A stretch of 64,000 nucleotides of DNA from Streptomyces rubradiris (lineage in GTDB: Bacteria; Actinomycetota; Actinomycetes; Streptomycetales; Streptomycetaceae), in NCBI RefSeq assembly GCF_016860525.1, contig NZ_BNEA01000001.1, forward strand, positions 1,753,501 through 1,817,500, read 5' to 3'. The position numbers were made by a program, and so were the translations under genes. Numbering within the stretch: position 1 is the stretch's first letter; each line of letters starts with the position of its first letter. A model generated the notes under the pieces. The model saw only the letters and a list, made by a program, of their open reading frames with translations. It had not been told where the DNA came from and searched no databases. This document shows, in pieces, positions 48,887 through 64,000 of this stretch.

Positions 48887-49951
<1,065 letters not shown>

Positions 49952-50006
49952 CAGCCGCTCCTTGTCCAAGATGCCTGCTCGTCGTACACCACCCTATCCA
50001 GCCGCA

Positions 50007-50073: not shown

Positions 50074-51729
50074 TCAGTGGTGGCCGTGGCCGCTCGCGAT
50101 CTCCTTGTACTCGTCGACGGTCGGCTTGGGGATCTGGCTGTCCTCGCCGTAGTAGGCGTGGGACAGCTTCACGCGCAGCTTCTCCGAGGCCGGGACCTTG
50201 CGCTCGACGCCGTTCTCGTCGACCGTCGGGCCGATCTCGGCCGGCGTGTACTGCTTGTGCGAGGTGAGGGTGTGCAGCTGCTCCTGGCTGAGCGGCTCGT
50301 GCACCTCGATGTACTCGCCGTGCGGGAGCCGCTTGACGATGCCGGTCTCGCGGCCGTGCAGCACCTTGTCGCGGTCCCGGCGCTGCAGGCCCAGGCAGAT
50401 CCGCTTGGTGACGATGAAGGCGATGACCGGGCCGACGAAGTAGGCGATCCGGACGAACCAGGTGACGGCGTTGATCGACAGGTGGAAGTGGGTGGCGACG
50501 ATGTCGTTGCCGCCGCCGATCAGCATCACGAAGTACACGGTCAGCCAGGCGACGCCGAACGCGGTGCGGGTGGCGGCGTTGCGCGGGCGGTCCAGGATGT
50601 GGTGCTCGCGCTTGTCGCCGGTGATCCAGGACTCGATGAACGGGTAGACCGCGATGGCCACGAGGATCAGGCCGAACACGAGCAGCGGGATGAACACGCC
50701 CAGGACGAGGGTGTGCCCCAAGAAGTCGATCTCCCAGCCCGGCATGGCGCGGATGAGGCCCTCGGCCATGCCCATGTACCAGTCGGGCTGGGCGCCGGTG
50801 GAGACGTGGTCGGGGCGGTAAGGGCCCATGGCCCAGATCGGGTTGATCTGGGCGACGGCGGACAGGGCCGCGAGGACGCCGAAGACCAGGAAGAAGAAGC
50901 CTCCGGCCTTGGCCATGTAGACCGGCAGCAGCGGCATGCCGACGACGTTCTTCTCGGTCTTGCCGGGACCCGCGAACTGGGTGTGCTTGTGGTAGAAGAC
51001 CAGGATCAGATGGGCCACCACGAGACCCAGCATGATGCCCGGCAGCAGCAGGATGTGGATGGTGTAGAACCGGGCCACGAAGTCCTGGCCGGGGAACTCG
51101 CCGCCGAAGAGGAAGAACGACAGGTACGTGCCGACGATCGGCACGGACAGGATCGCGCCCTCCATGAAGCGGACACCGGTGCCGGAGAGCAGGTCGTCCG
51201 GGAGCGAGTAGCCGGTGAAGCCGGTGAACATGCCGAGGACGAACAGCAGGAAGCCGAACAGCCAGTTCAGCTCGCGCGGCTTGCGGAACGCGCCGGAGAA
51301 GAACACGCGCATCATGTGCACGAACATCCCGGCGATGAACACGACCGCGCCCCAGTGGTGGATCTGCCGCATGAGCAGGCCGCCGCGCACGTCGAAGGAG
51401 ATGTGCAGAGTCGAGCGGAACGCCTCGGACATCAGCTGTCCCTGGAGCGGGACGTAGCCGCCGTGGTACTCCACCTCGTTCATCGACGGGTGGAAGAACA
51501 GCGTCAGGTAGACACCCGTCAGGATGATGATCAGAAACGAGTAGAGGCAGATCTCGCCCAGCATGAACGACCAGTGGTCGGGGAAGATCTTGCGCATGTT
51601 GGCCTTGGCCAGGGCGTACAGCCCCAGCCGTCCGTCGGCCCAGTCGGCGAGGCGCTCGCCGGCCGGCGCCTTCCCGCGGGGGCGGCCGGCCGCGCCGGGT
51701 CGAGGGGTTTCGTTCGGTGCAGTACTCAT
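50074..51729 (-). CDS. qcrB: Cytochrome bc1 cytochrome b subunit, copy 1 (QcrB)
   Basis: A 551-residue cytochrome b of the menaquinol-cytochrome c reductase in the inner membrane. Heme-b histidines lie in SFDVRGGLLMRQIHHWGA and VVAHLILVFYHKHTQFAG; the quinol site has LSVPIVGTYLS and PDWY. Starts at ATG 51729, overlapping the qcrA stop (ATGA). A second qcrB copy is at 62463-64000, differing at about 64 of 507 residues; those just after PDWY are concentrated there (MGMAEGLIRAMPGW versus MGFSEGFVRVMPGW in copy 2). A strong terminator follows. Likely a resistance copy. Confidence 0.93.
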   Translation of the reverse strand: MSTAPNETPRPGAAGRPRGKAPAGERLADWADGRLGLYALAKANMRKIFPDHWSFMLGEICLYSFLIIILTGVYLTLFFHPSMNEVEYHGGYVPLQGQLMSEAFRSTLHISFDVRGGLLMRQIHHWGAVVFIAGMFVHMMRVFFSGAFRKPRELNWLFGFLLFVLGMFTGFTGYSLPDDLLSGTGVRFMEGAILSVPIVGTYLSFFLFGGEFPGQDFVARFYTIHILLLPGIMLGLVVAHLILVFYHKHTQFAGPGKTEKNVVGMPLLPVYMAKAGGFFFLVFGVLAALSAVAQINPIWAMGPYRPDHVSTGAQPDWYMGMAEGLIRAMPGWEIDFLGHTLVLGVFIPLLVFGLILVAIAVYPFIESWITGDKREHHILDRPRNAATRTAFGVAWLTVYFVMLIGGGNDIVATHFHLSINAVTWFVRIAYFVGPVIAFIVTKRICLGLQRRDRDKVLHGRETGIVKRLPHGEYIEVHEPLSQEQLHTLTSHKQYTPAEIGPTVDENGVERKVPASEKLRVKLSHAYYGEDSQIPKPTVDEYKEIASGHGHH

Positions 51730-52793
51730 CCGCGCTCCCAGAAAGCAGGACCGACGGGCTCCTCGAAGTCGCCGAGCGCCTGGAGGTAACCCTCGCTGTC
51801 CACGCCGATGCGCAGCTGCGGCAGGGCGTGGCCGGCGGGGCCGAAGATCACTCGGGCGCCGTCGGTGAGGTCGAAGGTGGACTGGTGGCAGGGGCACAGC
51901 ACGTGGTGCGTCTGCTGTTCGTACAGCGAGATCGGGCAGCCCACGTGGGTGCAGATCTTCGAGTAGGCGACGATGCCCTGGTGCGACCAGTCGAGTTCGC
52001 GCTTGTCCTTGATGTCGTCGGGCTGGAGCCGGACGATCATCAGGGCGGCCTTGGCGATCTCGTTCTGGAAGTCCTCGTCGTGTTCCGCCAGGCCGTCGGG
52101 CATGGCGAAGGTCAGCGAGCCGACGGCCACGTCCTCCGGGCGCAGCGGCTGGTTGGTGTTCATGTTGACCAGGCGCTTGCCCTTGGCCCACAGGGTGTGG
52201 CGCAGCTTGGTGCCGGGTGCCGGTCCGAGGCCGCCGAGCAGCATCAGGCCGGTCAGCGGCACCAGCGCCATGGCGCCGAGCAGGGTGTTGCGGATCAGCT
52301 TGCGGCGGCCGAAGCCGGACTCCGCGGCACCCTGGCGGAAGTCCGCGTGGACCTTGGCCCGCACCTCGGGTGACGCCTCGATCGGGTGCCGGTCGTCGGC
52401 GATCTCCACGTCCGACATCAGGGTGCGCGCCCAGTGGACCGCGCCCGCGCCGATGCAGAACAGCGCCACGCCCAGCGTCAGGCCCAGCGCGAAGTTCATC
52501 GCGCTCAGGTGGCCGAGAGGGAAGACGAAGACCGACTTGTCGTTCGGGATCAGCAGGTACGAGACGATGAAGCCGATGGTGGCCAGCATCGACACCGTGA
52601 ACAGCAGTGCCACCGCGCGCTCGGACCGCTTGGCGGCCCGCTCGTCGATGTCCTGGATCCGGTGCTCGTGCGGCGGCACTCCGGGGTCCGCGAACGGGTT
52701 CTCCTCGTCCGCCACGGAGACGGCACCGTGCACACCGTCGCCGGCGGACTGCTCGGCACGCGGGCGCCCTTCCGGCATGTCCCGGTTTCCCAT
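51726..52793 (-). CDS. qcrA: Cytochrome bc1 Rieske iron-sulfur subunit (QcrA)
   Basis: A 355-residue Rieske protein with an N-terminal soluble tail, three membrane helices (about residues 60-80, 95-120 and 170-190) and a C-terminal [2Fe-2S] domain: CTHVGC and CPCHQS supply the Cys and His ligands, with GPAGHALPQL after them. ATG at 52793. It overlaps qcrB by four bases but, unlike in other actinobacteria (ctaE-qcrC-qcrA-qcrB), no qcrC lies upstream; a 578-base promoter region and the divergent biosynthetic operon do. It therefore looks like a moved or duplicated qcrAB pair. Confidence 0.93.
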   Translation of the reverse strand: MGNRDMPEGRPRAEQSAGDGVHGAVSVADEENPFADPGVPPHEHRIQDIDERAAKRSERAVALLFTVSMLATIGFIVSYLLIPNDKSVFVFPLGHLSAMNFALGLTLGVALFCIGAGAVHWARTLMSDVEIADDRHPIEASPEVRAKVHADFRQGAAESGFGRRKLIRNTLLGAMALVPLTGLMLLGGLGPAPGTKLRHTLWAKGKRLVNMNTNQPLRPEDVAVGSLTFAMPDGLAEHDEDFQNEIAKAALMIVRLQPDDIKDKRELDWSHQGIVAYSKICTHVGCPISLYEQQTHHVLCPCHQSTFDLTDGARVIFGPAGHALPQLRIGVDSEGYLQALGDFEEPVGPAFWERG

Positions 52794-53371
52794 AGTGCTC
52801 CAGACCGCCGTGATTTGGTGTATTCACACCGTACTACGCAGATTGTCCGGATAGCCGGGCCATTACTCCGGCCGGGGGTGTTTCGAACACAAGGGCCGGA
52901 ACCGCCTGTCGGCCCCTCCGCCGGAAGGGCCGCGCACGCCCGGCCGGAAGGGCCCGCGCACCGCCGGACGGCCGGGCTCCGACACCACCCGACCCCGGCG
53001 CCGTCCGGCACCGCGTAATCCGGCCAACGGTGAATCGCCGTTAGAAAGCTCACGTTTGGCGGTCCAATGCGGTAAATCAGCCGCGCAGCGGAACCCGACG
53101 GATCATCAACTCGCTGCGGTATGACGGGATTCGGTCAAACACCCAACCGAACGTTATCATCTGGTTACTTCGCCGGTATCGATCCGTTATCGCCGTGATC
53201 ATAAGGTGATTTTCGTTCTCACCGCGCTAGGGAATTCCCCTCCGTCGCCGGCGCACACGACGGGGGAAGCGGGGCCGGCCAACGATCTCCTTCATTGTTC
53301 TCACGGGGCCCCGACGTATGTCCGAACGGCATTTTCCGCGGGCAGCATCAGTACAAAGACGGGGATAATTC
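52794..53371. other. Long divergent control region between qcrA and the biosynthetic operon
   Basis: 578 bases without a gene. The right half (about 53040-53220) is clearly more AT-rich than the rest of the window (ATCATAAGGTGATTTTCG, GTTATCATCTGGTTACTTCG), as expected of promoters for the operon. The left half has short GC repeats (GGAAGGGCC, at about 52922 and 52947). I see no remnant of qcrC. A GGGGATAATTC lies just ahead of the GTG start of the first biosynthetic gene. Confidence 0.55.
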
Positions 53372-54367
53372 GTGTCACAAACTCGCATTGTCGACGTGGT
53401 TAATTTCATGCCGGAGCGGGTGGTCAGGAACAGCGAGTTGCCGAGCGAGGGCGGCGAGCTCGGCGACCACGCCTTCTTCGCGGGCGTGCACGAGCGGCGC
53501 TTCGCCTGGCCCGACTACACGTCGGCCCAGCTGGGCGCGAAGGCACTCGAGAAGCTCCTGGAGCGCAACGGCGTACCGGCGGCCGACGTCGATCTCATCA
53601 TCTGCGCCTCCCAGCTGAACGACGCCTTCTCGCCCGGCACGGGCACGGCCATCCAGTACGCGGTCGGCGCCACCAAGGCCGCCGTGCTCCAGGTGGACAA
53701 CGGCTGCTGCTCCTGGATCTCCTCCATCAACACGGCCCGGGCCTTCATCGACTCCGGCCAGTACCGCACGGTCGCGGTGGTCACGGTCACCAACTTCGTC
53801 TCCCGCCTCGAGGAGTTCCAGAAGGCGCCCGAGTCCCGGGTGCTCGGTGACGGCGCGTCCGCCACCCTCGTCACGGCCGGCGACGAGCCGACCATCCTCT
53901 CCATCCACGAGCAGGCGTTCGGGGAGAACTGGGGAGCGCTCAAGGTAGAGCCGGACACCGTCGAGGGCATGGAGATCCCCTACTGGTCGGCCGGCTCCGG
54001 CGCGCTGACCGTGAAGTTCGACCAGTCCATGCTGGCGCGTCTGTACACCGTCACCATGGAACAGCTTCCCCAGGCGGTCGACATCGCGCTGGAGAAGGCC
54101 GGTGTGCAGAACGAGGACGTCGCTTTCCTGATCACCCACCAGCCGAACGAGAAATACGTCGCCGAGTGGCGCAAGCGTTGCGGATTCGACGATTCCCGGG
54201 CACACGACACGCTCGGCACCTACGGCAACATGTTCCAGGGCACTCTTCCGGTGACGTTCGCCGACGCCCTCGACAAAAAGATGATCTCGCCCGGCGATCT
54301 CATCGCGTTCGCGACCTTCTCGCACGGCGGAGAACTCGTCGGTTCCATGGTCTGGCGCTGGAACTGA
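53372..54367 (+). CDS. KAS III-like ketosynthase, first biosynthetic gene
   Basis: A 331-residue 3-oxoacyl-ACP-synthase III-family protein. The triad is visible: Cys in QVDNGCCSWISS, His in LITHQPNEKY and Asn in LGTYGNMFQG. The chain starts at GTG 53372 with GGGGA upstream. It is not a housekeeping FabH: it shares little with the FabH pattern VCTGF/PHQAN seen in the second KAS III of the cluster. In neocarazostatin/carquinostatin-type clusters a KAS III-like enzyme couples an acyl chain with the indole unit (recalled); that is the proposed role. Confidence 0.87.
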   Translation: MSQTRIVDVVNFMPERVVRNSELPSEGGELGDHAFFAGVHERRFAWPDYTSAQLGAKALEKLLERNGVPAADVDLIICASQLNDAFSPGTGTAIQYAVGATKAAVLQVDNGCCSWISSINTARAFIDSGQYRTVAVVTVTNFVSRLEEFQKAPESRVLGDGASATLVTAGDEPTILSIHEQAFGENWGALKVEPDTVEGMEIPYWSAGSGALTVKFDQSMLARLYTVTMEQLPQAVDIALEKAGVQNEDVAFLITHQPNEKYVAEWRKRCGFDDSRAHDTLGTYGNMFQGTLPVTFADALDKKMISPGDLIAFATFSHGGELVGSMVWRWN

Positions 54368-54444
54368 CTTTCCGGGGCAACCCCGCCTGCCCGCTCCCTT
54401 TCACTTCATTTCTTTCGTTCTTTTACCACTGCATGAGGAGAAGT

Positions 54445-55125
54445 ATGTCCCAGCGCGTTCCCGACGAGTCGGGTCTGGCCCAGAACTACGTCCTGGACCG
54501 GTCCGACCTGGAGGGCCTGGACCTGGTGTGGAACGAGAACACCGGTATGGACGACATGATGAAGCTCATGGAGAGCCGGACGAAGGAGACGTACGACCAC
54601 GGCGAGATCTTCGGTCAGTACTGCTCCCTCGCCGAGCACATCAACGTCCCCTACGACATCGTCTTCGAGTACGCGGCCAACGCCCGCTCCCTGGAGGAGT
54701 GGACGTACAGCATCCGCAACATGAAGCACCTCGGCGGCGGGCTGTACCGCGCGGACGAGATGATCCAGCCGAACACGGACATCTACATCCGCGCCGACGC
54801 GCAGAAGGGCCCCGAGCACGGTCTCGTGGTCTACCCGTGCGCCTGGGACCAGGGCCACGAGCTGTGGATGCGCTACTACATGACGATCATCGACTCGTCG
54901 AAGGTCCTCGACAAGCCGGGCACCGTGGTGCTGTGGACCAACTGCAAGCACCCGTACTACGACCGTACGACGGAGAACGTCCCGGACTACATCGCCGAGG
55001 GCCGGGCGCGCACCGACCGCGTCTGGGTCGGTGACATCTGGCCCGTCTTCCACGCCGGCCACAGCATCGAGATGGGCAACCTGAAGCGCATCCTGGAGCA
55101 CCGCTTCGGCGCCGGCAAGGCCTGA
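54445..55125 (+). CDS. SRPBCC cyclase/aromatase-like protein
   Basis: A 226-residue protein with an SRPBCC/polyketide-cyclase-type fold (EHINVPYDIVFEYAANARSLEEWTYSIRNMKHLGGGLYRADEMI, then PCAWDQGHELWMRYYMTIIDSSKVL). Starts at ATG 54445 with GAGGAG five bases upstream. Proteins of this sort, placed beside the ThDP enzyme, catalyse ring closure of the carbazole skeleton in related pathways (recalled as CqsB2). Its sequence differs clearly from the SRPBCC protein at 32406. Family match is moderate. Confidence 0.8.
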   Translation: MSQRVPDESGLAQNYVLDRSDLEGLDLVWNENTGMDDMMKLMESRTKETYDHGEIFGQYCSLAEHINVPYDIVFEYAANARSLEEWTYSIRNMKHLGGGLYRADEMIQPNTDIYIRADAQKGPEHGLVVYPCAWDQGHELWMRYYMTIIDSSKVLDKPGTVVLWTNCKHPYYDRTTENVPDYIAEGRARTDRVWVGDIWPVFHAGHSIEMGNLKRILEHRFGAGKA

Positions 55126-55197
55126 AGCCCGCCGTGGGGCGGCCGCGGCCGCCCCGCACCGCACCACGACGAAGCACACGCCACACATGGGGGATCA

Positions 55198-56976
55198 ATG
55201 CGGCTGGCCGATGCCTTGGTCACGGTACTGCGCGACCTGGACACCAGATACGTGTTCGGCGTCAGCGGCGCGAACATCGAGCACGTCCACGACGCGATCG
55301 ACAGGCTCGGTCAGGGCCGTCTGACGTCCGTACTGGCCAAGCGGGAGGACGGGGCGGCGAACATGGCGGACGCCCGCGCCCGGGTGCACCGCACACTGGG
55401 GGTGTGCTGTTCGACCTCCGGCGGCGGGATGATGAACCTCGTCGCCGGGCTGGCCGAGTCCCACGCGGAGTCGGTGCCGGTCCTCGCGCTGGTCGGGCAG
55501 CCGCCGGCCGCCCTGGACGGCCGGGGCTCCTTCCAGGACTCCTCCGGGATCGGCCGGACCGTGGACGGTCCGGCCCTGCTGCGGGCCATCACCAAGAAGA
55601 CCGTCCGGGTCACCGGTGCCGAGGGCTTCTGGGACCTGCTGCGCGACGCCGTCTCCACCTGCCTGAGCGGCCGCAAGGGCCCGGTGGCCCTGCTGCTGCC
55701 CCGGGACGTGTACGAGCTGGAGGTCGGTGACGTCCCGGCCGACTGGCCGACCCACCTCGGCGGCTTCATCGAGCCCGAACCGCTGCCCGAGCCGCAGGTG
55801 TCCGCCCTCTTCGACCGGCTGCGCGAGGCCAGTGCCCCGGTGCTGCTGCTCGGGCACGGCAACCGCCGCTCCTGCGACCCGGAGGCGGTGCGCGTCTTCG
55901 CCGAGCGGACCCGCATCCCCGTGGTGACCACCATGGGCGCGCGCGGCGAGTTCCCCAACGACAGCGACCTGTACCTGGGCGTCGTCGGCGAGGGCGGCCA
56001 CCCCTCGGCCGCCGAGTACGTGGCCAAGTCGGACTTCGTGGTCCTGGTGGGCACCGGACTGGCCATGATGACCCGGCGGGCGCTGGGCGACTGGGACCCG
56101 GCACGGGCCGGCGCGGTCAACATCGACCTCGGCGAGATCGAACGCTCGGGCCTGGCGGACACCACGGTCCGCGGGGACATCGGCGAGGTGTTCCGGCTCA
56201 TGGAACGGCTGCGCGCAAAGCGCCCGTTCACGGCCCCGCCGGTCACCGGCTACGAGCTGACCCGCTTCGTGGCCCGGCCCGCCGTACCCGTCCCGGGGCG
56301 CACCGGCGAGCGGGACGGGGACGCGCTGCTGCAGAGCGAGGCCGTCCGGCTGCTCCAGGAACACCTGCCGCGGGGCGGCCACCTGCTCTACGACGCCGGG
56401 AACTGCGCCGTCGCCGCCATGCACTACGGGTCCGTGCCGGCCGGCTCCTCCTCCACCATCGCGCTGGGCATGGGCGGCATGGGCTACAGCGTCGGGGCGG
56501 CCGTCGGCGCCCAGCTCGGCTCGCCTGAGGGCACCCGGACCGTGGTGTTCTGCGGTGACGGGGCGTTCCTGATGAGCGGTCTGGAGGCGCACACCGCCGT
56601 GGAGCTGGGCCTGCCCATCCTGTACGTCGTCTTCAACAACGGCATGCACGGCATGTGCGCCACGCGCCAGCAGCGGTTCTTCGACTCCCGGATCACCGCC
56701 GTGGACTACACGCCGGTCGACGTGCGCACGGTGGCGCGGGGCCTGGGCTCCCCCGACCGGCTGTGGGTCGGCAGCGCCGGCACCGCCGCCGAGCTGGCCG
56801 GGCGACTGGCGGAGTACCGGCGCCACGCGCACCTGCCCGGGGTCCTCGAACTGAGGCTCACCGTGGAGGAGGAGCCGCCCTTCGCCTCCTTCCTGCCCGC
56901 CGACGCCCCCACCGTGCCGGTGCCCGGGCCACGACAGGCCGCCGTCTCCTACGAGATGACCGGCAGCGCTCTCTGA
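55198..56976 (+). CDS. ThDP-dependent acyloin/decarboxylase-type enzyme
   Basis: A 592-residue thiamine-diphosphate enzyme of the acetolactate synthase/indolepyruvate decarboxylase group. N-terminal PYR domain: VFGVSGANIEHV, the catalytic-type Glu in LAKREDGAANMA, and GVCCSTSGGGMMNLVAGLAES. The C-terminal PP domain has GDGAFLMSGLEAHTA and VFNNGMHGM, the ThDP/Mg motif. Proposed role: acyloin coupling of indole-3-pyruvate with pyruvate, as for NzsH in neocarazostatin synthesis (recalled). ATG at 55198 has GGGGGA upstream. It is 72 bases after the SRPBCC gene. Confidence 0.87.
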   Translation: MRLADALVTVLRDLDTRYVFGVSGANIEHVHDAIDRLGQGRLTSVLAKREDGAANMADARARVHRTLGVCCSTSGGGMMNLVAGLAESHAESVPVLALVGQPPAALDGRGSFQDSSGIGRTVDGPALLRAITKKTVRVTGAEGFWDLLRDAVSTCLSGRKGPVALLLPRDVYELEVGDVPADWPTHLGGFIEPEPLPEPQVSALFDRLREASAPVLLLGHGNRRSCDPEAVRVFAERTRIPVVTTMGARGEFPNDSDLYLGVVGEGGHPSAAEYVAKSDFVVLVGTGLAMMTRRALGDWDPARAGAVNIDLGEIERSGLADTTVRGDIGEVFRLMERLRAKRPFTAPPVTGYELTRFVARPAVPVPGRTGERDGDALLQSEAVRLLQEHLPRGGHLLYDAGNCAVAAMHYGSVPAGSSSTIALGMGGMGYSVGAAVGAQLGSPEGTRTVVFCGDGAFLMSGLEAHTAVELGLPILYVVFNNGMHGMCATRQQRFFDSRITAVDYTPVDVRTVARGLGSPDRLWVGSAGTAAELAGRLAEYRRHAHLPGVLELRLTVEEEPPFASFLPADAPTVPVPGPRQAAVSYEMTGSAL

Positions 56977-57086
56977 CGCGTCGCCCTCCGTACGCCTTCG
57001 TCCGCAGCTCCCCGTGAGGCACCCCGCCGCCGCATCCGGCCGGGCGGGGCCGCGGGGACGCGCGGACCCCATCGGAAAGAACTCAC

Positions 57087-58100
57087 ATGACAGTGCAAGA
57101 GCTGGACCTCGCAGGCATCACGGACTCCGGGCTGCGCGCCGACTACATCGCGAGCTCCCAGCTGTTCCGCAAGATCGGACGGGGGCGCTTCCTCGGCCGC
57201 TACATGATGCACCCGGCCAAGCGGCCCTACTTCGACACCTTCTTCTCCTTCGTCTGCTACATCGACGACCTGGCCGACGACATCAACCTCAGCGTCGACG
57301 TCCGGGCCCGCAGGCTGGACGAGTGGCAGCGCACCTACATGGCCGTCGCCAAGGGCGAGGACCTGCCCAGTGAGCACCCGCTGTCGCTGTCGGAGCGGAC
57401 GGACGCCGCCCTCGCCCGCGCCCTGGTCCACACCCTGCGCACCTGGGACCTGCCCTACCTGCGCGTGCCCGAGTTCGTCGACGGCCACCGCAAGGCCCTG
57501 ACGACGTACGAGTACGCCGACGAGGAGGAGCTGGACGACTTCCTGGAGACGGTCACGCTGCTGCCCGCGATCTGGATCAACCAGATCTTCGAGCCGCTGA
57601 GCGAGGACGCCGAGGAGCTGTGCCGGCACACCATCACGGCCTTCCAGCTGCTGGACTTCATCTGGGACCTGCGCGAGGACCTGGACCTGGGCCGGCTGTA
57701 CCTCCCGCTGGACCACCTCGCCCGCTTCGGCCTGACCCGGGCGGACCTGGACCGCCAGATCGGCAGCGGCTACATCAGCGACTCGCTGCGCGAGCTGATC
57801 CAGTACGAGATCGACATCGCCCGGGGGCACCTGGACGCCGGCCGCTCCTGGCCGCAGACGCTGCACCCGACGGCGCGGATCTTCATGGAGACCGACATCC
57901 AGACGCACGACTCCATGTTCCCGGAGATGATCAAGGACGACTACGCGTTCTTCAAGAACCCCCGGCGCGGCATCGACTTCGTCTCCGGCCGGATGATCCC
58001 GCGCACGGCCAAGGCCATCGCCCGCGCCCGCAAGGCCAACCAGCGGGCCACCCGCGCCGGTTACCGCATCCGGCCGCCGTACCGGGGCACCGGGGTATGA
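57087..58100 (+). CDS. Squalene/phytoene synthase-like prenyltransferase
   Basis: A 337-residue all-helical trans-isoprenyl synthase-like protein. The two Asp-rich motifs are YIDDLADDINLS and FIWDLREDLDLG, aligned with squalene/phytoene synthases. No carotenoid or hopanoid genes are adjacent, and the cluster context is carbazole. Squalene-synthase-like enzymes CqsB4/NzsG transfer dimethylallyl to carbazoles (recalled), so aromatic prenylation is the proposed function. Stop overlaps the next start (ATGA). Confidence 0.85.
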   Translation: MTVQELDLAGITDSGLRADYIASSQLFRKIGRGRFLGRYMMHPAKRPYFDTFFSFVCYIDDLADDINLSVDVRARRLDEWQRTYMAVAKGEDLPSEHPLSLSERTDAALARALVHTLRTWDLPYLRVPEFVDGHRKALTTYEYADEEELDDFLETVTLLPAIWINQIFEPLSEDAEELCRHTITAFQLLDFIWDLREDLDLGRLYLPLDHLARFGLTRADLDRQIGSGYISDSLRELIQYEIDIARGHLDAGRSWPQTLHPTARIFMETDIQTHDSMFPEMIKDDYAFFKNPRRGIDFVSGRMIPRTAKAIARARKANQRATRAGYRIRPPYRGTGV

Positions 58101-59107
58101 CCCGCGGGGCGATCCTGAGCGGCCTGGGCACCTGGCTCCCGCCGCAAGTGGTCACCAACGACATGCTCTCGTCGGAACTCGACACCTCCGACGAGTGGAT
58201 CCGGACCCGCACCGGCATCGGCCGGCGGCACATCGCGTCGCCGGGCATGAGCACCGGGCACCTCGCCACCGAGGCGGCGCGCCGGGCGCTGAAGTCGGCC
58301 GGCACCGACCGCGTCGACGTCGTCATCGTCGCCACGAGCACCCCGGACCGCCCCTGCCCCGCGACCGCCCCGGTGGTCGCCTCCGCACTCGGGCTGACCG
58401 GGACCGGCGCCTTCGACGTGGCTGCGGTGTGCACGGGCTTCGTGTACGCGCTGGCCACCGCGGCGGGGCTGATCACCGGTCAGGTCGCGGACAGCGCCCT
58501 GGTGATCGGGGCGGACACCTTCTCCACCATCCTCGACCCGCGGGACCGCACCACCCGGGTGATCTTCGGCGACGGCGCCGGCGCGGTCGTCCTGCGCGCC
58601 GGCGACCGGGCCGAGGAGGGCGCCCTGCGCGGCTTCGACCTGGGCAGCGACGGCACCGGCGTGGACCTCATCACGGTGCCCGGCGGAGGCTCCGAGCAGC
58701 GGCTGAGCGGGACCGAGGCGGCCCCGGGCGACCAGTATTTCCACATGGACGGCCCGCAGGTCTTCACCCGTGCCGTCCGGTACATGACCGGGTCCGTGCG
58801 CAAGGTCCTGGACGCCGCCGCGCTGGCCCCCGAGGATCTCGCCCACCTGGTCCCGCACCAGGCGAACGTCAGGATCCTCGACACCTGCGCCCGGGAACTC
58901 GGGCTGCCCGCCGAGCGCGTCGTGAAGAACATCGACCGGGTCGGCAACACCGTGGCCGCCTCCATCCCGCTCGCGCTCGCCGCGGGTGCGGCCGACGGGC
59001 GGCTGCGGGCGGGCGATCCGGTGGTCCTCACCGGCTTCGGCGGCGGCCTGACCTGGGGCTCGGCACTGCTCACCTGGCCCGGCGGCCTCACCGTGATCGA
59101 CGGCTGA
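58097..59107 (+). CDS. FabH-type 3-oxoacyl-ACP synthase III
   Basis: A 336-residue KAS III. Cys in AAVCTGF, His in PHQANVRI and Asn in VGNTVAAS make the full catalytic triad. DEWIRTRTGIGRRH is the classical FabH loop. Placed before the ACP gene, it probably starts the acyl chain on the ACP. Translation is coupled to the prenyltransferase by ATGA overlap. Confidence 0.9.
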   Translation: MTRGAILSGLGTWLPPQVVTNDMLSSELDTSDEWIRTRTGIGRRHIASPGMSTGHLATEAARRALKSAGTDRVDVVIVATSTPDRPCPATAPVVASALGLTGTGAFDVAAVCTGFVYALATAAGLITGQVADSALVIGADTFSTILDPRDRTTRVIFGDGAGAVVLRAGDRAEEGALRGFDLGSDGTGVDLITVPGGGSEQRLSGTEAAPGDQYFHMDGPQVFTRAVRYMTGSVRKVLDAAALAPEDLAHLVPHQANVRILDTCARELGLPAERVVKNIDRVGNTVAASIPLALAAGAADGRLRAGDPVVLTGFGGGLTWGSALLTWPGGLTVIDG

Positions 59108-59142
59108 CCACACCCTCCCCACAGACCACGGAGAAGAGAGTC

Positions 59143-59382
59143 ATGAACACCATCGACCAGAACCTGAGGGCGCTGCTCGACGAGCGGTTCCCCCAGTCCA
59201 CCGACCGCCTCTTCGAGGGCGCGTCGTTCAAAGACGCCGGCATGGACTCGATGGGGGTCGTCGAGTTCATCGTGGCCCTGGAGCGGCAGTTCGGCACCCC
59301 GACGCTGAACGGCAACGAACTCGGCGCCGACTCCACGCTCCAGGACGCGCGCGACCTGCTGACCTCGGTGGGCGTCGGCTGA
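59143..59382 (+). CDS. Acyl carrier protein
   Basis: A 79-residue ACP with phosphopantetheine Ser in AGMDSMGVVEFIVALE and helices flanking it. It is atypical of housekeeping ACPs in the sequence before the Ser (FKDAGMDSMG). It would hold the short acyl chain made by the adjacent KAS III. The stop is followed directly by the aminotransferase start (TGATG). Confidence 0.9.
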   Translation: MNTIDQNLRALLDERFPQSTDRLFEGASFKDAGMDSMGVVEFIVALERQFGTPTLNGNELGADSTLQDARDLLTSVGVG

Positions 59383-60359
59383 TGCCCCAGCCGCATCGGC
59401 TCACCCTCAACGAGCACCCGCTGCCGCCGCTCGACTCCGTCGCCGCCGAGATCGCCCGGCACGCCGCCGCGGTCAACCGGTACCCGGAGTTCTATCCCGA
59501 GCGGCTGCGCGGGATCGTCGCCGACTGGCTGGGGCTGCCCGGTGAGCAGGTCGTGCTCGGCGCGGGGTCCGTGGGCGTCGCGCTCCAGGCGCTCCAGGCC
59601 AGTGTGTCCGCCGGCGGGGGGCTGGCATACGGCTGGCGCAACTTCGACGCCTATCCCCTGCTCGCCGGCATGGTGGGGGCGCGCCGCGTCGAGGTGCCCC
59701 TGCTCCCGGGCGGGCATCAGGACCTCGACGCGCTGGCGAAGGCGGTCCAGGACGCGGACGCGGTCATCGTGTGCAACCCGCACAACCCGACCGGCCGGCT
59801 GGTCCCCGGCGACGAGCTGAAGGAGTTCGTCGCCCGGGTCCCGGAGCACGTCCTGGTGGTCCTGGACGAGGCGTACATCGAGTTCGTCGCCCCGTCCGGC
59901 CGTACGGACTCGCTGGGCTGGGTCCGGGAGTTCCCGAACCTGCTGGTGCTGCGCACCTTCTCCAAGGCATGGGGGCTGGCCAACATGCGCGTCGGGTACG
60001 GCGTGACGTCCCCCGAGTGGGCCGAGAGGATCGGCCGGTACCAGCTGCCGTACGCCCTGAGCACCCTGTCGGCGGTGGCGGTGGAGACGTCCCTGCGGGC
60101 CCAGCCGGAGCTGGAGGAGCGGATCGCCGTCATCGTCGGCGAGCGCGAGCGGCTGTCCGGCGGGCTCGCCCGCGGCGGCTGGAAGGTGCTGCCGAGCCAC
60201 ACCAACTTCCTGTGGCTGGACGAACCGGAGCGGACCGAGGACATCCGCCTGGCCCTGGCGGGCGAGGGCGTCCAGGCCCGCTGCTACGCCGGCGAGGGCG
60301 TCCGCGTCACCGTCGGCGACACCGAAGCCAACGACAGCGTGCTGCGCGCCCTGGCCTAG
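59382..60359 (+). CDS. HisC-like class I/II aminotransferase
   Basis: A 325-residue PLP enzyme similar to histidinol-phosphate/aromatic aminotransferases. PLP lysine lies in RTFSKAWGLANMRVGYG; other landmarks are VIVCNPHNPTGRL, VVLDEAYIEFV and VRVTVGDTEAND. It overlaps the ACP stop (TGATG), so it belongs to the biosynthetic operon rather than histidine synthesis. Proposed role: deamination of L-tryptophan to indole-3-pyruvate for the ThDP enzyme. Confidence 0.85.
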   Translation: MPQPHRLTLNEHPLPPLDSVAAEIARHAAAVNRYPEFYPERLRGIVADWLGLPGEQVVLGAGSVGVALQALQASVSAGGGLAYGWRNFDAYPLLAGMVGARRVEVPLLPGGHQDLDALAKAVQDADAVIVCNPHNPTGRLVPGDELKEFVARVPEHVLVVLDEAYIEFVAPSGRTDSLGWVREFPNLLVLRTFSKAWGLANMRVGYGVTSPEWAERIGRYQLPYALSTLSAVAVETSLRAQPELEERIAVIVGERERLSGGLARGGWKVLPSHTNFLWLDEPERTEDIRLALAGEGVQARCYAGEGVRVTVGDTEANDSVLRALA

Positions 60360-60366
60360 GCGCTCG

Positions 60367-60417
60367 CGCGAAAGAGCCGCTGCCCACGGTCTTCCCGTGG
60401 GCAGCGGCTCTTTCGCG
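60367..60417. terminator. Bidirectional terminator between biosynthetic operon and idi
   Basis: A perfect 23-bp inverted repeat (60367-60389 with 60395-60417, loop TCTTC) lies eight bases after the aminotransferase stop and 14 before the idi stop. It terminates both convergent units. Confidence 0.9.
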
Positions 60418-60430
60418 GGTCAGGGGGTGG

Positions 60431-61003
60431 TCACCAGCCGCCGCCCGGCGCGACGTGCCGTACGCCCGGCAGGGCCGCCTCCAGCACGGTGGGGAACCAC
60501 GCCGAGAAGCTGGTCTCGGCCCGCAGCGCGGCCAGCTCCCCGGGGGTCACGAAACGGTAGTCGTGGATCTCGGCGGGGTCCGGCTCCGGGATGTCCTTCA
60601 CCAGGCCGACGAAGAGGTGGTTGTACTCCTTCTCGACCAGGCCGGAGATCTCGTCCGGGTGCTCGTAGGTGACCGTGCCGGCCGGTTCCAGCGGGATGCC
60701 GTGCAGGCCCAGCTCCTCGCCGACACGGCGGGCCGCCGCCTCCTGCGCGGGCTCGTCCGGGTACGGGTGCCCGCAACAGGTGTTGGACCACACGCCCGGC
60801 GAGTGGTACTTCGTCAGCGCCCGCTGCTGGAGCAGCATGCGCCCCTCGGTGTCGAACAGGAACACCGAGAAGGCGCGGTGCAGACGGCCGGGCGCCTGGT
60901 GCGCCGAGAGCTTCTCGGCGACGCCGATCGTCCGGCCCTCCTCGTCGACGAGTTCGAGCAGGATCGGCTCCGTGGCGGCGCTGCCGGAGGTTTCCGTGGT
61001 CAT
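60431..61003 (-). CDS. idi: Isopentenyl-diphosphate delta-isomerase, type I
   Basis: A 190-residue Nudix-fold IPP isomerase that interconverts IPP and DMAPP. The catalytic Cys is in SNTCCGHPYPDEP, Glu in VTYEHPDEISGLVEKEYNHLF, with AHQAPGRLHRAFSVFLF near the N-terminus. It starts four bases from the P450 stop, forming a P450-idi pair. Its presence beside the prenyltransferase suggests an extra DMAPP supply for prenylation. Confidence 0.94.
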   Translation of the reverse strand: MTTETSGSAATEPILLELVDEEGRTIGVAEKLSAHQAPGRLHRAFSVFLFDTEGRMLLQQRALTKYHSPGVWSNTCCGHPYPDEPAQEAAARRVGEELGLHGIPLEPAGTVTYEHPDEISGLVEKEYNHLFVGLVKDIPEPDPAEIHDYRFVTPGELAALRAETSFSAWFPTVLEAALPGVRHVAPGGGW

Positions 61004-61007
61004 CGGA

Positions 61008-62261
61008 TCAGCCCACCCTCGGAGTCGTGGTGACGGGGAGCCGGGCCGGGCCGCGCAGCCACAGGCCGGGCTTCAGGGCGACCTCGTCGTCGTCCGGCTT
61101 GATCGAGGCGCAGCGCTTGGCGAGCCCGATCAGCGCCTCCTTGGCCATCAGGCGGGAGAGGTTGTCGCCGAGGCAGTAGTGGATACCGCGGCCGAACGAC
61201 AGGTGCCTGCGGCCGTGCTTGCCGAGGGCCAGGGTGTCGGGGTTCTCGAAGGCCCGCTCGTCCCGGTTGGCCGCGGCCAGCATCAGCAGCACCACGGCGC
61301 CGGGCTCCATGGTCCGGCCGTGCAGGGTGACCGGCTCGTTGACCACGCGCCAGGAGGCGTGCGTGGGCGGCTCCAGGCGCAGCACCTCGTCCAGCACGTC
61401 GTCGGCGAGGGAGGGGTCGGCGGCGAGCCGCTCCAGCACGTCCGGGTGCTCGGCCAGGATGACCGCGGCGTTGCCGATGAGGTTGGCGAAGGTGTCCAGG
61501 CCGGGCACGATGAGCAGCACGCACACCGCGGCGACCTGCTGGATCGTCAGGCCCTCGATGGTCTCGCCGGCCCGGGTCAGCTCGGTGATCAGGTCGGTGC
61601 CGTCGCCGCCCGCGCGCTCCTGGAGCACCTTGACGAAGTACTCGGTGCACTGCGCCACCGCGCGCTGGCAGGCGATCGCCACATCCTCCGACGGCGCGGC
61701 GCCCAGCTCCAGGATGTGCGCGATCTCCGTCGACCAGGCGGCGAGGAGCTTCTGGTCCTCGCGGTCGATGCCCATCATGTCACCGAGCACGCGCACGGGC
61801 AGTTGGGAGGCCAGCACCTCCATGACGTCGAACCGCTCGGGGAGGTCCGCCAGCAGGTCGTCCACGACCGCGGTGACGGACTTGATCAGCGCCTCCACCG
61901 CGGACGGGGTGAACGGCGCGGCGACGAGGTTGCGCAGCTTGGTGTGGTCCGGCGGGTCCAGCAGCCGGAAGAGGCCCGCGTCCCAGCCGTCGAGGCCGAG
62001 GCCGAGGAAGGGCGGCGGCTCCTCGTCGGGGCCGGTGCCGGCCACCTGGGCGAAGAACTGGGTGCCCCCGAGGTCCTTGCCGAGCCGGCGGTCACGCAGC
62101 AGGGCCTCGACGTCCTCGTAGCGGCTGACCACCCAGGAGTTGAGCGGGCCCGCGAGGAGGGGGTGTGCGTCCCGGAGCTTCGCGTAGACCGGGTAGGGGT
62201 TCCGGCGGAAGCCGGGGTCGGTCGGATCGAAGAAGAATTCCGGCTCGGCAGGTTCTGCCAT
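61008..62261 (-). CDS. Cytochrome P450
   Basis: A 417-residue soluble bacterial P450. The heme-Cys motif is FGRGIHYCLG, the ExxR is in DEVLRLEPP, and the I-helix is LLIVPGLDTFANLIGN, where the usual Ala/Gly before GxD/ET is Pro. ATG at 62261 is preferred (GGGGGAG six bases upstream). With no ferredoxin beside it, it depends on another redox partner. Expected to oxidise the carbazole, for instance to a hydroxyl or ortho-quinone, by analogy to NzsA (recalled). Confidence 0.92.
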   Translation of the reverse strand: MAEPAEPEFFFDPTDPGFRRNPYPVYAKLRDAHPLLAGPLNSWVVSRYEDVEALLRDRRLGKDLGGTQFFAQVAGTGPDEEPPPFLGLGLDGWDAGLFRLLDPPDHTKLRNLVAAPFTPSAVEALIKSVTAVVDDLLADLPERFDVMEVLASQLPVRVLGDMMGIDREDQKLLAAWSTEIAHILELGAAPSEDVAIACQRAVAQCTEYFVKVLQERAGGDGTDLITELTRAGETIEGLTIQQVAAVCVLLIVPGLDTFANLIGNAAVILAEHPDVLERLAADPSLADDVLDEVLRLEPPTHASWRVVNEPVTLHGRTMEPGAVVLLMLAAANRDERAFENPDTLALGKHGRRHLSFGRGIHYCLGDNLSRLMAKEALIGLAKRCASIKPDDDEVALKPGLWLRGPARLPVTTTPRVG

Positions 62262-62405
62262 CAGTGACTCCCCCATTATCACGCCGTGGGCGGCCCGCGC
62301 GGGCTTCTGGCCCCGGCTCAAGATCACGACAGTGTGATCATAGCCTCGATCTGGCGACAGCCGTATAACGGGTCGATAACCGCCGACACGTCCCGTACAC
62401 AAAAA

Positions 62406-62438
62406 GGCGGCCCCACGGACCGGGTCCGTGGGGCCGCC
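62406..62438 (-). terminator. Rho-independent-type terminator after qcrB copy 2
   Basis: A perfect 15-bp stem (62406-62420 with 62424-62438, loop CGG) is followed on the minus strand by TTTTTGTG, one of the few terminators here with a U tract. It lies 24 bases past the copy 2 stop. Confidence 0.85.
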
Positions 62439-62462
62439 TGCGTGGCGATCAGTGACGGCGGA

Positions 62463-64000
62463 TCAGTGGTGGCCGTGGCCGCTCGTGATCTCCTTGTACT
62501 CCTCCGCCCTCGGCTTCGGGATCTGGGCGTGCTCGCCGTAGTAGGCGTTGGACAGCTTCGCCCGCAGCTTCTGCGAGGCCGGGACCTTGCGCTCCACACC
62601 GTTCTCGTCGACCGTCGGGCCGATCTCGGCCGGCGCGTACTGCTCGTGCGCGGTGAGCGTGTGCAGCTGCTCCTGGCTGAGCGGCTCGTGCACCTCGATG
62701 AACTCACCGTGCGGCAGGCGCTTGATGATGCCGGTCTCGCGGCCGTGCAGCACCTTCTCGCGGTCCCGGCGCTGCAGGCCGAGACAGATCCGCTTGGTGA
62801 CGATGTACGCGATGACCGGGCCGGCGAACAGGAAGATCCGGACGAAGTACGTGACGGCGTTGACCGACAGGTGGAAGTGCGTCGCCCACAGGTCGTTGCC
62901 GCCACCCACCATGGCCATCGCGAAGAACGTCAGCCAGGCGACACCGAGAGCGGTGCGCGTCGGGGCGTTGCGCGGGCGGTCCAGGATGTGGTGCTCGCGC
63001 TTGTCACCGGTGATCCAGGACTCGATGAACGGGTAGACCGCGATCGAGACCAGCATCAGACCGAAGACGATCAGCGGGATGAGCACACCGAGGACCAGCG
63101 TGTGGCCCGCGACGTTGATCTCCCAGCCCGGCATCACACGCACGAAGCCCTCGGAGAAGCCCATGTACCAGTCGGGCTGGGCGCCGGTGGACACCTGGTC
63201 CGGACGGTAGGGGCCCATCGCCCAGATCGGGTTGATCTGCGCGACCGCGGCCAGCACCGCCAGGACACCGAAGACCAGGAAGAAGAAGCCTCCGGCCTTG
63301 GCCATGTAGACCGGCAGCAGCGGCATGCCGACGACGTTCTTCTCGGTCTTGCCGGGACCCGCGAACTGCGTGTGCTTGTGGTAGAAGACCAGGATCAGGT
63401 GGGCCACCATCAGGCCCAGCATGATGCCCGGCAGCAGCAGGATGTGGATCGAGTAGAACCGGGCCACGAAGTCGTGACCGGGGAACTCGCCGCCGAAGAG
63501 GAAGAACGACAGGTACGTGCCGACGATCGGCACGGACAGCACCAGACCCTCGGCGATGCGCACACCGGTGCCGGAGAGCAGGTCGTCCGGGAGCGAGTAA
63601 CCGGTGAAGCCGGTGAACATGCCGAGGACGAACAGCAGGAAGCCGAACAGCCAGTTGATCTCACGCGGCTTGCGGAACGCGCCGGTGAAGAACACGCGCA
63701 TCATGTGCACGAACATGCCGGCGAGGAAGACCACCGCGCCCCAGTGGTGGATCTGCCGGATGAGCAGACCACCGCGCACGTCGAAGGAGATGTGCAGGGT
63801 CGAGTTGAACGCCTCGGACATCAGCTGTCCCTGCATCGGGACATAAGAGCCGTGGTACTCCACCTCGTTCATCGACGGGTGGAAGAACAGCGTCAGATAC
63901 ACACCCGTCAGGATGATGATGATGAAGCTGTACATGCACACTTCGCCCAACATGAACGACCAGTGGTCGGGGAAGATCTTGCGCATGTTGGCCTTGGCCA
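62463..64000 (-). CDS. qcrB: Cytochrome bc1 cytochrome b subunit, copy 2 (QcrB), start beyond window
   Basis: The minus-strand frame runs from the stop at 62463 to the window edge, so the start lies outside; 512 residues are visible. Heme ligand regions (GGLLIRQIHHWGA, VAHLILVFYHKHTQFAG) and the quinol site (SVPIVGTYLS, PDWY) are intact. It is about 87% identical to copy 1. The residues recalled for the S. coelicolor QcrB (for example FNSTLHIS and MGFAEGLVRVMPGW) are closer to this copy, so it is probably the native one, with qcrA and qcrC expected just beyond the edge. Confidence 0.92.
   Translation of the reverse strand, partial: AKANMRKIFPDHWSFMLGEVCMYSFIIIILTGVYLTLFFHPSMNEVEYHGSYVPMQGQLMSEAFNSTLHISFDVRGGLLIRQIHHWGAVVFLAGMFVHMMRVFFTGAFRKPREINWLFGFLLFVLGMFTGFTGYSLPDDLLSGTGVRIAEGLVLSVPIVGTYLSFFLFGGEFPGHDFVARFYSIHILLLPGIMLGLMVAHLILVFYHKHTQFAGPGKTEKNVVGMPLLPVYMAKAGGFFFLVFGVLAVLAAVAQINPIWAMGPYRPDQVSTGAQPDWYMGFSEGFVRVMPGWEINVAGHTLVLGVLIPLIVFGLMLVSIAVYPFIESWITGDKREHHILDRPRNAPTRTALGVAWLTFFAMAMVGGGNDLWATHFHLSVNAVTYFVRIFLFAGPVIAYIVTKRICLGLQRRDREKVLHGRETGIIKRLPHGEFIEVHEPLSQEQLHTLTAHEQYAPAEIGPTVDENGVERKVPASQKLRAKLSNAYYGEHAQIPKPRAEEYKEITSGHGHH

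Follow-up and report, generated by a model that had tools for sequence, protein, structure and literature searches.

In the 64,000-nucleotide stretch of the Streptomyces rubradiris genome analyzed here (the window; C1:1753501-1817500 of its genome, labelled G000), a biosynthetic gene cluster of the carquinostatin/neocarazostatin carbazole type is bracketed by two copies of qcrA-qcrB, the genes of the Rieske protein and cytochrome b of the respiratory bc1 (bcc) complex. The cytochrome b of the right-hand copy (QcrB2) carries, in the helix (cd1) that borders the quinol pocket, two residues found in none of 257 other Streptomyces QcrBs. From this pattern we infer that the cluster product probably inhibits the quinol-oxidation site (Qo, also called Qp) of the bcc complex, with QcrB2 as the resistant target. 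The preliminary description of this DNA had likewise proposed bc1 self-resistance, but with the left-hand qcrAB pair as the resistant copy; self-resistance stands as the best reading of the sequence, a closely similar second qcrAB at the cluster being confined to cluster carriers among 392 genomes, while the resistant copy would be QcrB2 rather than that pair.

Under the proposed mechanism, the cluster product, a prenylated carbazole, would block the quinol-oxidation site of the bacterial cytochrome bcc complex, and the producer would protect itself by target modification: QcrB2, encoded in the housekeeping qcrCAB operon, would have a remodelled cd1 (F188I, M189A, A192L, I193V) plus L325F, changes that may keep menaquinol oxidation and weaken binding of the product. 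The qcrA1B1 pair (copy 1) would represent the older form, native in type, which has been pushed to the opposite flank of the cluster and is less constrained today. For the S. morookaense/MA37 type, a single modified QcrB may give similar protection, S. morookaense having no duplicate at its locus.

Two qcrAB copies bracket the carbazole cluster

The cluster extends from 53372 to ~62261 and is complete. To its left, qcrB1 and qcrA1 lie on the minus strand (50077-52793; qcrB1 50077..51729, qcrA1 51726..52793) and abut trpD, which encodes anthranilate phosphoribosyltransferase (48887..49969, minus; Pfam). To its right, qcrB2, also on the minus strand, occupies 62463..64000 and runs on to position 64100 (C1:1817600), its first 100 coding bases lying outside the window, where qcrA2, qcrC and ctaE follow. 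Thus qcrA-qcrB is present on both sides, and the overall order is ctaE-qcrC-qcrA2-qcrB2, cluster, qcrA1-qcrB1-trpD; the early description of a qcrA-qcrB pair on one side and a second qcrB in the same orientation on the other was borne out, both qcrB being full-length, and is extended by qcrA2. QcrB1 and QcrB2 are 87% identical, both are intact open frames with the PDWY motif, and both QcrA proteins have the Rieske motifs (for QcrA1, a Pfam assignment with both Cys-His motifs, and an N-terminus unlike that of native QcrA). A strong intrinsic-terminator-like hairpin (62405..62439, minus; -39.3 kcal/mol, z -6.28) lies 3' of qcrB2, between the qcrCAB operon and the cytochrome P450 gene of the cluster.

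Among Streptomyces loci with flanks, qcrC, qcrA, qcrB and trpD stood together in 96 of 99, trpD being the native downstream neighbour of qcrB, and the usual order was qcrC-qcrA-qcrB-trpD in those loci examined for order that hold all four. Thus the cluster sits within the native bc1 locus, with qcrAB duplicated. Moreover both the junction of copy 1 with trpD and that of qcrC with qcrA2 resemble those of the sister species G111 and G020. As first described, qcrA1 (start 52793, minus) and the first biosynthetic gene (53372, plus) are transcribed away from each other; the intergenic region (52794..53371, no strand) does not resemble qcrC, the gene found ahead of qcrA in native loci, and qcrA1B1 is therefore uncoupled from qcrC.

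The bracket is rare across the genus. In a sample of 392 genomes, of which 373 had any QcrB match at E<=1e-295, two matches at this threshold were found in only five (G000, G181, G102, G262 and G376). Three of these (G000, G181, G102) hold both cluster and bracket, while the second copy of the other two (G262, G376) is a 79% paralogue elsewhere; only cluster carriers (3/392) thus had a closely similar second qcrAB beside the cluster, and the scarcity of genomes with two close QcrBs argues that the bracket is more than chance. A second qcr pair common among Streptomyces without the cluster, which would speak against self-resistance, was therefore not what the sample contained. The bracket recurs in S. 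eurythermus (G181/L068) and WELS2 (G102/L069), and S. achromogenes (L067) fits it, with a contig that breaks off in qcrA at either end. The extra qcrAB was not shared by S. morookaense (G219/L071), where a single qcrAB, in the native operon, adjoins the cluster in the order ctaE-qcrC-qcrA-qcrB-P450-trpD-isomerase followed by the remaining cluster. In this species trpD (L332:14815-15879) stands between the P450 and isopentenyl diphosphate (IPP) isomerase genes, inside the carbazole cluster.

The carbazole-forming cyclase had some match in 37 of the 392 genomes and a match of at least 67% identity in six; four of these (G000, G181, G102 and G219) had the complete set, prenyltransferase, P450 and isomerase included, and the other two (G366 and G069) had nearby only the core trio.

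Accessory QcrBs (~70-75% identity) occur in a number of Streptomyces (L060-L066, L324; for example G007:C1:2592632, G013:C1:2405809 and G376:C1:6849695), several of them 140-160 kb from the main qcr locus. They were considered as a second pair shared by many species and rejected, the flanks of seven such loci (L060-L066) being without qcrA, qcrC and trpD. A third QcrB-like cytochrome b in the S. rubradiris genome (C1:117398-118954, 50% identity), has after it a frame whose cysteines are spaced as in ferredoxins (judged by eye). It is probably a dehydrogenase membrane subunit, possibly of the formate dehydrogenase kind, and was set aside as a dehydrogenase-type relative.

Residue changes in the quinol pocket of QcrB2

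In copy-1 numbering, QcrB2 differs by F188I, M189A, A192L and I193V before a conserved proline (codons of I188, A189 and L192 at 63543..63557, minus, checked) and by L325F just past the PDWY motif (codon at 63144..63146, minus, checked). The S. morookaense QcrB has F188I, M189A, A192L and L325I, while QcrB1 retains the ordinary cd1 sequence VRFMEGAILS. In the 257 other Streptomyces QcrBs, residue 188 was F in 256 and L in one, residue 192 was A in 243 and V in 14, and residue 189 was M in 144, T in 97, I in 13, A in two and V in one. I188 and L192 were each absent from these sequences (0/257, sites equated by sequence alignment only; 95% upper bound for an unseen state, 1.2%), but occurred together in copy 2 of all four species examined and in S. 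morookaense. By genome, the association (4/4 full-cluster carriers versus 0/257) gave a Fisher p of 5e-9, and counted as two lineages a p of 3e-5; both values serve as description only, the carrier sequences having been known when the residues were picked.

The 257 are the best-matching QcrB per genome from the 392, with 131 genomes outside; S. morookaense and the three carriers with two copies were tallied separately. The first draw leaned to relatives with high scores, and a later search of 80 more genomes gave a match in 79. Locus context covers 99 of the 257 (the 96 with all four neighbours together being those given above), and among eight of the most divergent other QcrBs seven were in native loci and one (G196) was without these neighbours. 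Repeated loci per genome, the paralogue loci (L060-L066 and the second loci of G262 and G376) and the QcrBs of ten genomes reached via named loci (G420 being the same place as G366) were excluded from the counts. Several candidate markers were discarded: A192V in G069 and G366, as V192 occurs in 14 of the 257, 12 of these without a cyclase match of at least 67%; L325F alone, as F occurs in 8 of the 257; and N312, L319, M321 and A337, each present in some of the 257.

In a search of 5.8 billion proteins with the S. morookaense cd1 stretch (residues 160-206; best 120 of 4312 matches), the top six, which include S. morookaense, NPDC002536, Streptomyces sp. MA37, NPDC046215 and NPDC000410, all had I188 and L192, with A at 189 in five and G in NPDC000410. 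The full I188/A189/L192 triad was thus present in the QcrBs of MA37 and NPDC046215 (protein matches, not loci). According to the accessible part of PMC7466098 (all papers are cited here from such parts), the neocarazostatin cluster was identified in strain MA37. NPDC046215 and NPDC000410 also have homologues of the cyclase CqsB2, and linkage of QcrB and cluster in these two is likely, as the longest contigs given for the QcrB and the CqsB2 homologue have equal lengths (91474 and 136936). With the QcrB2 stretch as query (best 120 of 7925), I-A-L was found in 15 matches, 13 of them of the copy 2 type.

The changed residues fall in the quinol pocket by alignment. Residues 189, 192 and 193 align with Ala179 or Leu180, Ile183 and Thr184 of the Mycobacterium tuberculosis (Mtb) protein (7e1v); a one-residue gap in this stretch makes the match of 188 uncertain by one, and positions are from alignment and not structural distance. 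Leu180 and Ile183 lie around menaquinone, and Ala179, Leu180 and Thr184 are among the Q203/TB47 contacts (PMC8616580). Moreover, helix cd1 borders the Qp pocket, and the yeast stigmatellin-resistance change I147F is reported (PMC8523172).

A pocket could also be reshaped for a new substrate: QcrB2 might oxidise the carbazole hydroquinone, the product being a private electron carrier rather than a poison. The ortho-quinone or similar ring borne by some bacterial carbazoles (PMC7466098) and the location of the changes in the quinol pocket would suit such a role, but the residues align with inhibitor contacts (PMC8616580), similar residues occur in other actinobacteria and evidence of electron transfer is lacking; we regard this adaptation as very improbable.

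Origin of the copies and competing explanations

In the rpoB tree (28 genomes), G111 and G020 were sisters of the G000/G181/G102 group with support of 100/100; neither had a cyclase match in the 392-genome search, and trpD stands beside their qcrB. On DNA, QcrB1 was sister to the G111/G020 QcrB, while QcrB2 came next outside that group in one tree and was unresolved in a 25-row analysis. On DNA, the approximately unbiased (AU) test rejected a sister relationship between copies 1 and 2 (p-AU 3.8e-4), and likewise a single clade of copy 2 and S. morookaense (25 rows, signature codons masked; p-AU 2.3e-7). Codons at and beside the triad differ between copy 2 and S. morookaense, and four changes are required on the protein tree built with masked signature columns. 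We lean towards convergence, with the signature residues arising independently in the two lineages.

Constraint also differed between the copies. dN/dS between species was 0.09-0.22 for QcrB2 and 0.26-0.43 for QcrB1, suggesting that both copies are kept, copy 2 more strictly. QcrA2 departs at four columns conserved in at least 90% of 72 natives, and three of these departures are common to QcrA1, so that the earlier argument from a joint QcrA and QcrB duplication fitting the Qo site carries little weight. The QcrA copies share 39 derived sites relative to the sister species, which makes exchange between them likely; a single clean insertion is not claimed.

These results bear on the version in the preliminary description, in which resistance would come from qcrA1-qcrB1, transcribed together with the cluster out of the intergenic region where the two diverge. 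The position and divergent orientation of the pair speak for it, as do the T145S and P386A changes of QcrB1 in all three species, at columns invariant in the 257, and the new N-terminus of QcrA1. However, on DNA QcrB1 falls with the QcrBs of G111 and G020, species without a cyclase match, and keeps their cd1 and PDWY region, the pocket changes being in copy 2; none of its shared private changes (I37L, S91G, T145S, P386A, T545A) falls on a named Qp or Qn residue (Mtb alignment; PMC8616580); S. morookaense is without such a pair at its locus; and QcrB1 is under the weaker constraint. Resistance residing in copy 1 is thus quite unlikely.

The history of the locus offers another explanation. Sites in qcrB shared with G111/G020 numbered 57 for copy 1 versus 18 for copy 2 in the 3' part, and 22 versus 20 in the 5' part (Fisher p 0.013); measured against five other natives instead, the 5' part is closer to copy 2 and the 3' part almost evenly split. 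These split affinities suggest that the qcrB copies are partly mosaic. Derivation of copy 2 as a whole from a distant donor was rejected, the qcrC region and the 5' part of qcrB being native-like. The trpD of the cluster carriers (48887-49969) groups with G164/G302/G243, whereas rpoB groups the carriers with G111/G020, which points to recombination around the locus. The cluster may have recombined into qcrB-trpD, a core locus where a tryptophan gene also lies, leaving the qcrAB duplicate as a scar and the QcrB2 changes as drift. The mosaic copies would agree with such hitch-hiking (though the 3' excess of 57 versus 18 is small or absent with the five other natives), and so would trpD within the S. 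morookaense cluster. But drift poorly explains I188 and L192, seen in 0 of the 257, in two QcrBs that adjoin the same cluster and do not form one clade on DNA, nor does it sit well with the stronger purifying selection on copy 2. We consider hitch-hiking unlikely, and favour QcrB2 as the probable resistant target.

Several lines of evidence weigh against QcrB2 being a resistant target shaped by the product: i) The masked protein tree puts copy 2 with copy 1 and G111/G020 in one unresolved group, and on protein a single clade was not rejected (p-AU 0.32 for all signature rows, 0.36 for copy 2 with the S. morookaense type, S. thioluteus P0257 being omitted for its very long branch), which slightly lowers our confidence; transfer of a very short piece of qcrB is compatible with these data; ii) Purifying selection still acts on copy 1, as would not be required of a sensitive copy that is simply redundant; iii) I188/A189 with V, I or L at 192 occurs in other actinobacteria, e.g., Actinocrinis and Yinghuangia, and F-A-A (A189 without I188 or L192) in 43 of the 120 matches listed; iv) The QcrBs of ISL-99 (P0248; S at 189) and S. 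thioluteus (P0257) carry I188 and L192 with no carbazole cluster shown; v) Streptomyces sp. 7-21 (G416), with an 83% CqsB2 and a 55% prenyltransferase, has F188 and A192 in its sole QcrB; vi) Among the genomes with core-trio clusters, the qcr-locus QcrBs of G418, G419 and G423-G425 show F188 and A192, and the comparison leaves outside the QcrBs of S. stramineus and Embleya NBC_00896 (84-85% CqsB2); vii) No bc1 inhibition by these carbazoles was found in the open literature, among the matches listed, and the accessible part of PMC8024497 names H+-ATPase and malate dehydrogenase as possible carbazole targets. In that paper carbazomycin B disturbs respiratory metabolism in Xanthomonas, via malate dehydrogenase according to its authors, and carbazoles are mentioned as inhibitors of H+-ATPase. 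As to the other points, no P450 or isomerase gene was found beside the cluster of strain 7-21, which lies away from an intact qcr-trpD locus. The occurrence of the residues in other actinobacteria and their rarity in Streptomyces suggest that they are workable in an actinobacterial bcc complex and unusual in Streptomyces. ISL-99 and S. thioluteus are possible pointers to other bc1-directed products.

Taking both sides together, a broader proposition is in our judgement somewhat favoured: that the carquinostatin/neocarazostatin/lavanduquinocin family would be natural inhibitors of the bacterial bc1 Qo site, and that its producers would have converged at least twice on 188I, a small residue at 189 and 192L.

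Product class and comparison with known systems

The genes of the cluster begin on the plus strand with a CqsB1/NzsJ-like β-ketoacyl-acyl carrier protein synthase (KAS) III-type enzyme (53372..54367; Pfam, role from PMC7466098), a CqsB2/NzsI-like carbazole-forming cyclase (54445..55125; named by the gene set and PMC7466098, a Pfam scan of a shorter stretch having given no match) and a CqsB3/NzsH-like thiamine-dependent enzyme (55198..56976; Pfam). On the same strand follow a phytoene-synthase-like carbazole prenyltransferase (NzsG-like; 57087..58100; Pfam), a KAS III (NzsF-like; 58097..59107; Pfam), a free-standing acyl carrier protein (ACP; NzsE-like; 59143..59382), assigned by position and length only, with related frames at the corresponding position of L067-L069 and L071, and a class I/II aminotransferase (59382..60359; Pfam). 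On the minus strand are a type 1 IPP isomerase (NUDIX; NzsC/CqsB8-like; 60431..61003; Pfam, PMC7466098) and the cytochrome P450 (NzsA-like; 61008..62261, start 62261 or 62276; Pfam). CqsB1, CqsB2 and CqsB3 homologues thus occur together with prenyltransferase, ACP, KAS III, IPP isomerase and P450, and the product is probably a prenylated carbazole of the ortho-quinone type, an assignment to cqs/nzs made by gene set and families and not by identity to the published Cqs/Nzs proteins. Tryptophan is a building block of the carbazole (PMC7466098).

A second family of cyclase homologues (~40-47% identity; L093-L146, 31 genomes) stands with thiamine diphosphate (ThDP)-dependent and KAS-like genes in many loci, and looks like a related aromatic pathway. 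The cyclase/ThDP/KAS trio was also seen in Nostoc, Scytonema, Syntrophus, Legionella and a Blastocatellia metagenome-assembled genome (L079, L082-L092). These surveys covered the best 120 of 153 cyclase homologues and 80 of 89 contig-scan loci.

The neocarazostatin (nzs) and carquinostatin (cqs) clusters have the same enzyme set as the cluster described here (trio, prenyltransferase, KAS III, ACP, type 1 IPP isomerase and P450). The main text of PMC7466098 contains the terms qcr, ubiquinol, flank and resistance zero times, hence no bc1 link under those words; in the paper on the S. tubbatahanensis carbazole, "cytochrome" and "qcr" were absent by term counts. No bacterial QcrB or bc1 self-resistance with a biosynthetic cluster was found among the matches listed from the open literature, most subscription papers lying outside it.

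Members of the carquinostatin/neocarazostatin/lavanduquinocin family are usually described as antioxidants. Carbazole biosynthesis is largely worked out, and in the accessible parts of the literature consulted no bc1 target is assigned; if our explanation is true, target and pocket would have been named by genome comparison alone. It would also provide a case of natural resistance via a reshaped helix cd1 of actinobacterial QcrB, of interest as QcrB is a drug target, and the pattern of 188I, a small residue at 189 and 192L might serve as a guide to other natural products directed at bc1, with ISL-99 and S. thioluteus as the first candidates.

The changes in Q203/TB47-resistant mycobacterial QcrB (T313A, H195Y) likewise affect an actinobacterial QcrB within or close to its Qp pocket (accessible parts of PMC8616580 and PMC8523172). 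Those mutants were selected against drug candidates, whereas the sites in this locus are in the cd1 helix (188-193); at the counterpart of T313 (residue 322), 246 of the 257 sampled QcrBs have A or S. Strobilurin producers, as far as the accessible part of PMC6158276 describes them, make a Qo inhibitor and owe their protection to their own cytochrome b, the cluster itself containing no resistance gene, and the S. morookaense arrangement would work alike. The strobilurin case is fungal, mitochondrial and unlinked to the cluster, whereas here the changed gene touches the cluster and one lineage has qcrAB duplicated. In target-duplication self-resistance, a second copy of the target gene is located at the biosynthetic cluster. 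The locus described here shares the second copy at the cluster; unlike in that scheme, the modified copy is apparently the housekeeping one and the extra pair is of the old type. The additional copy of a gene at a cluster is thus not necessarily the one that confers resistance; in this locus the old copy has seemingly been moved aside and the housekeeping copy changed.

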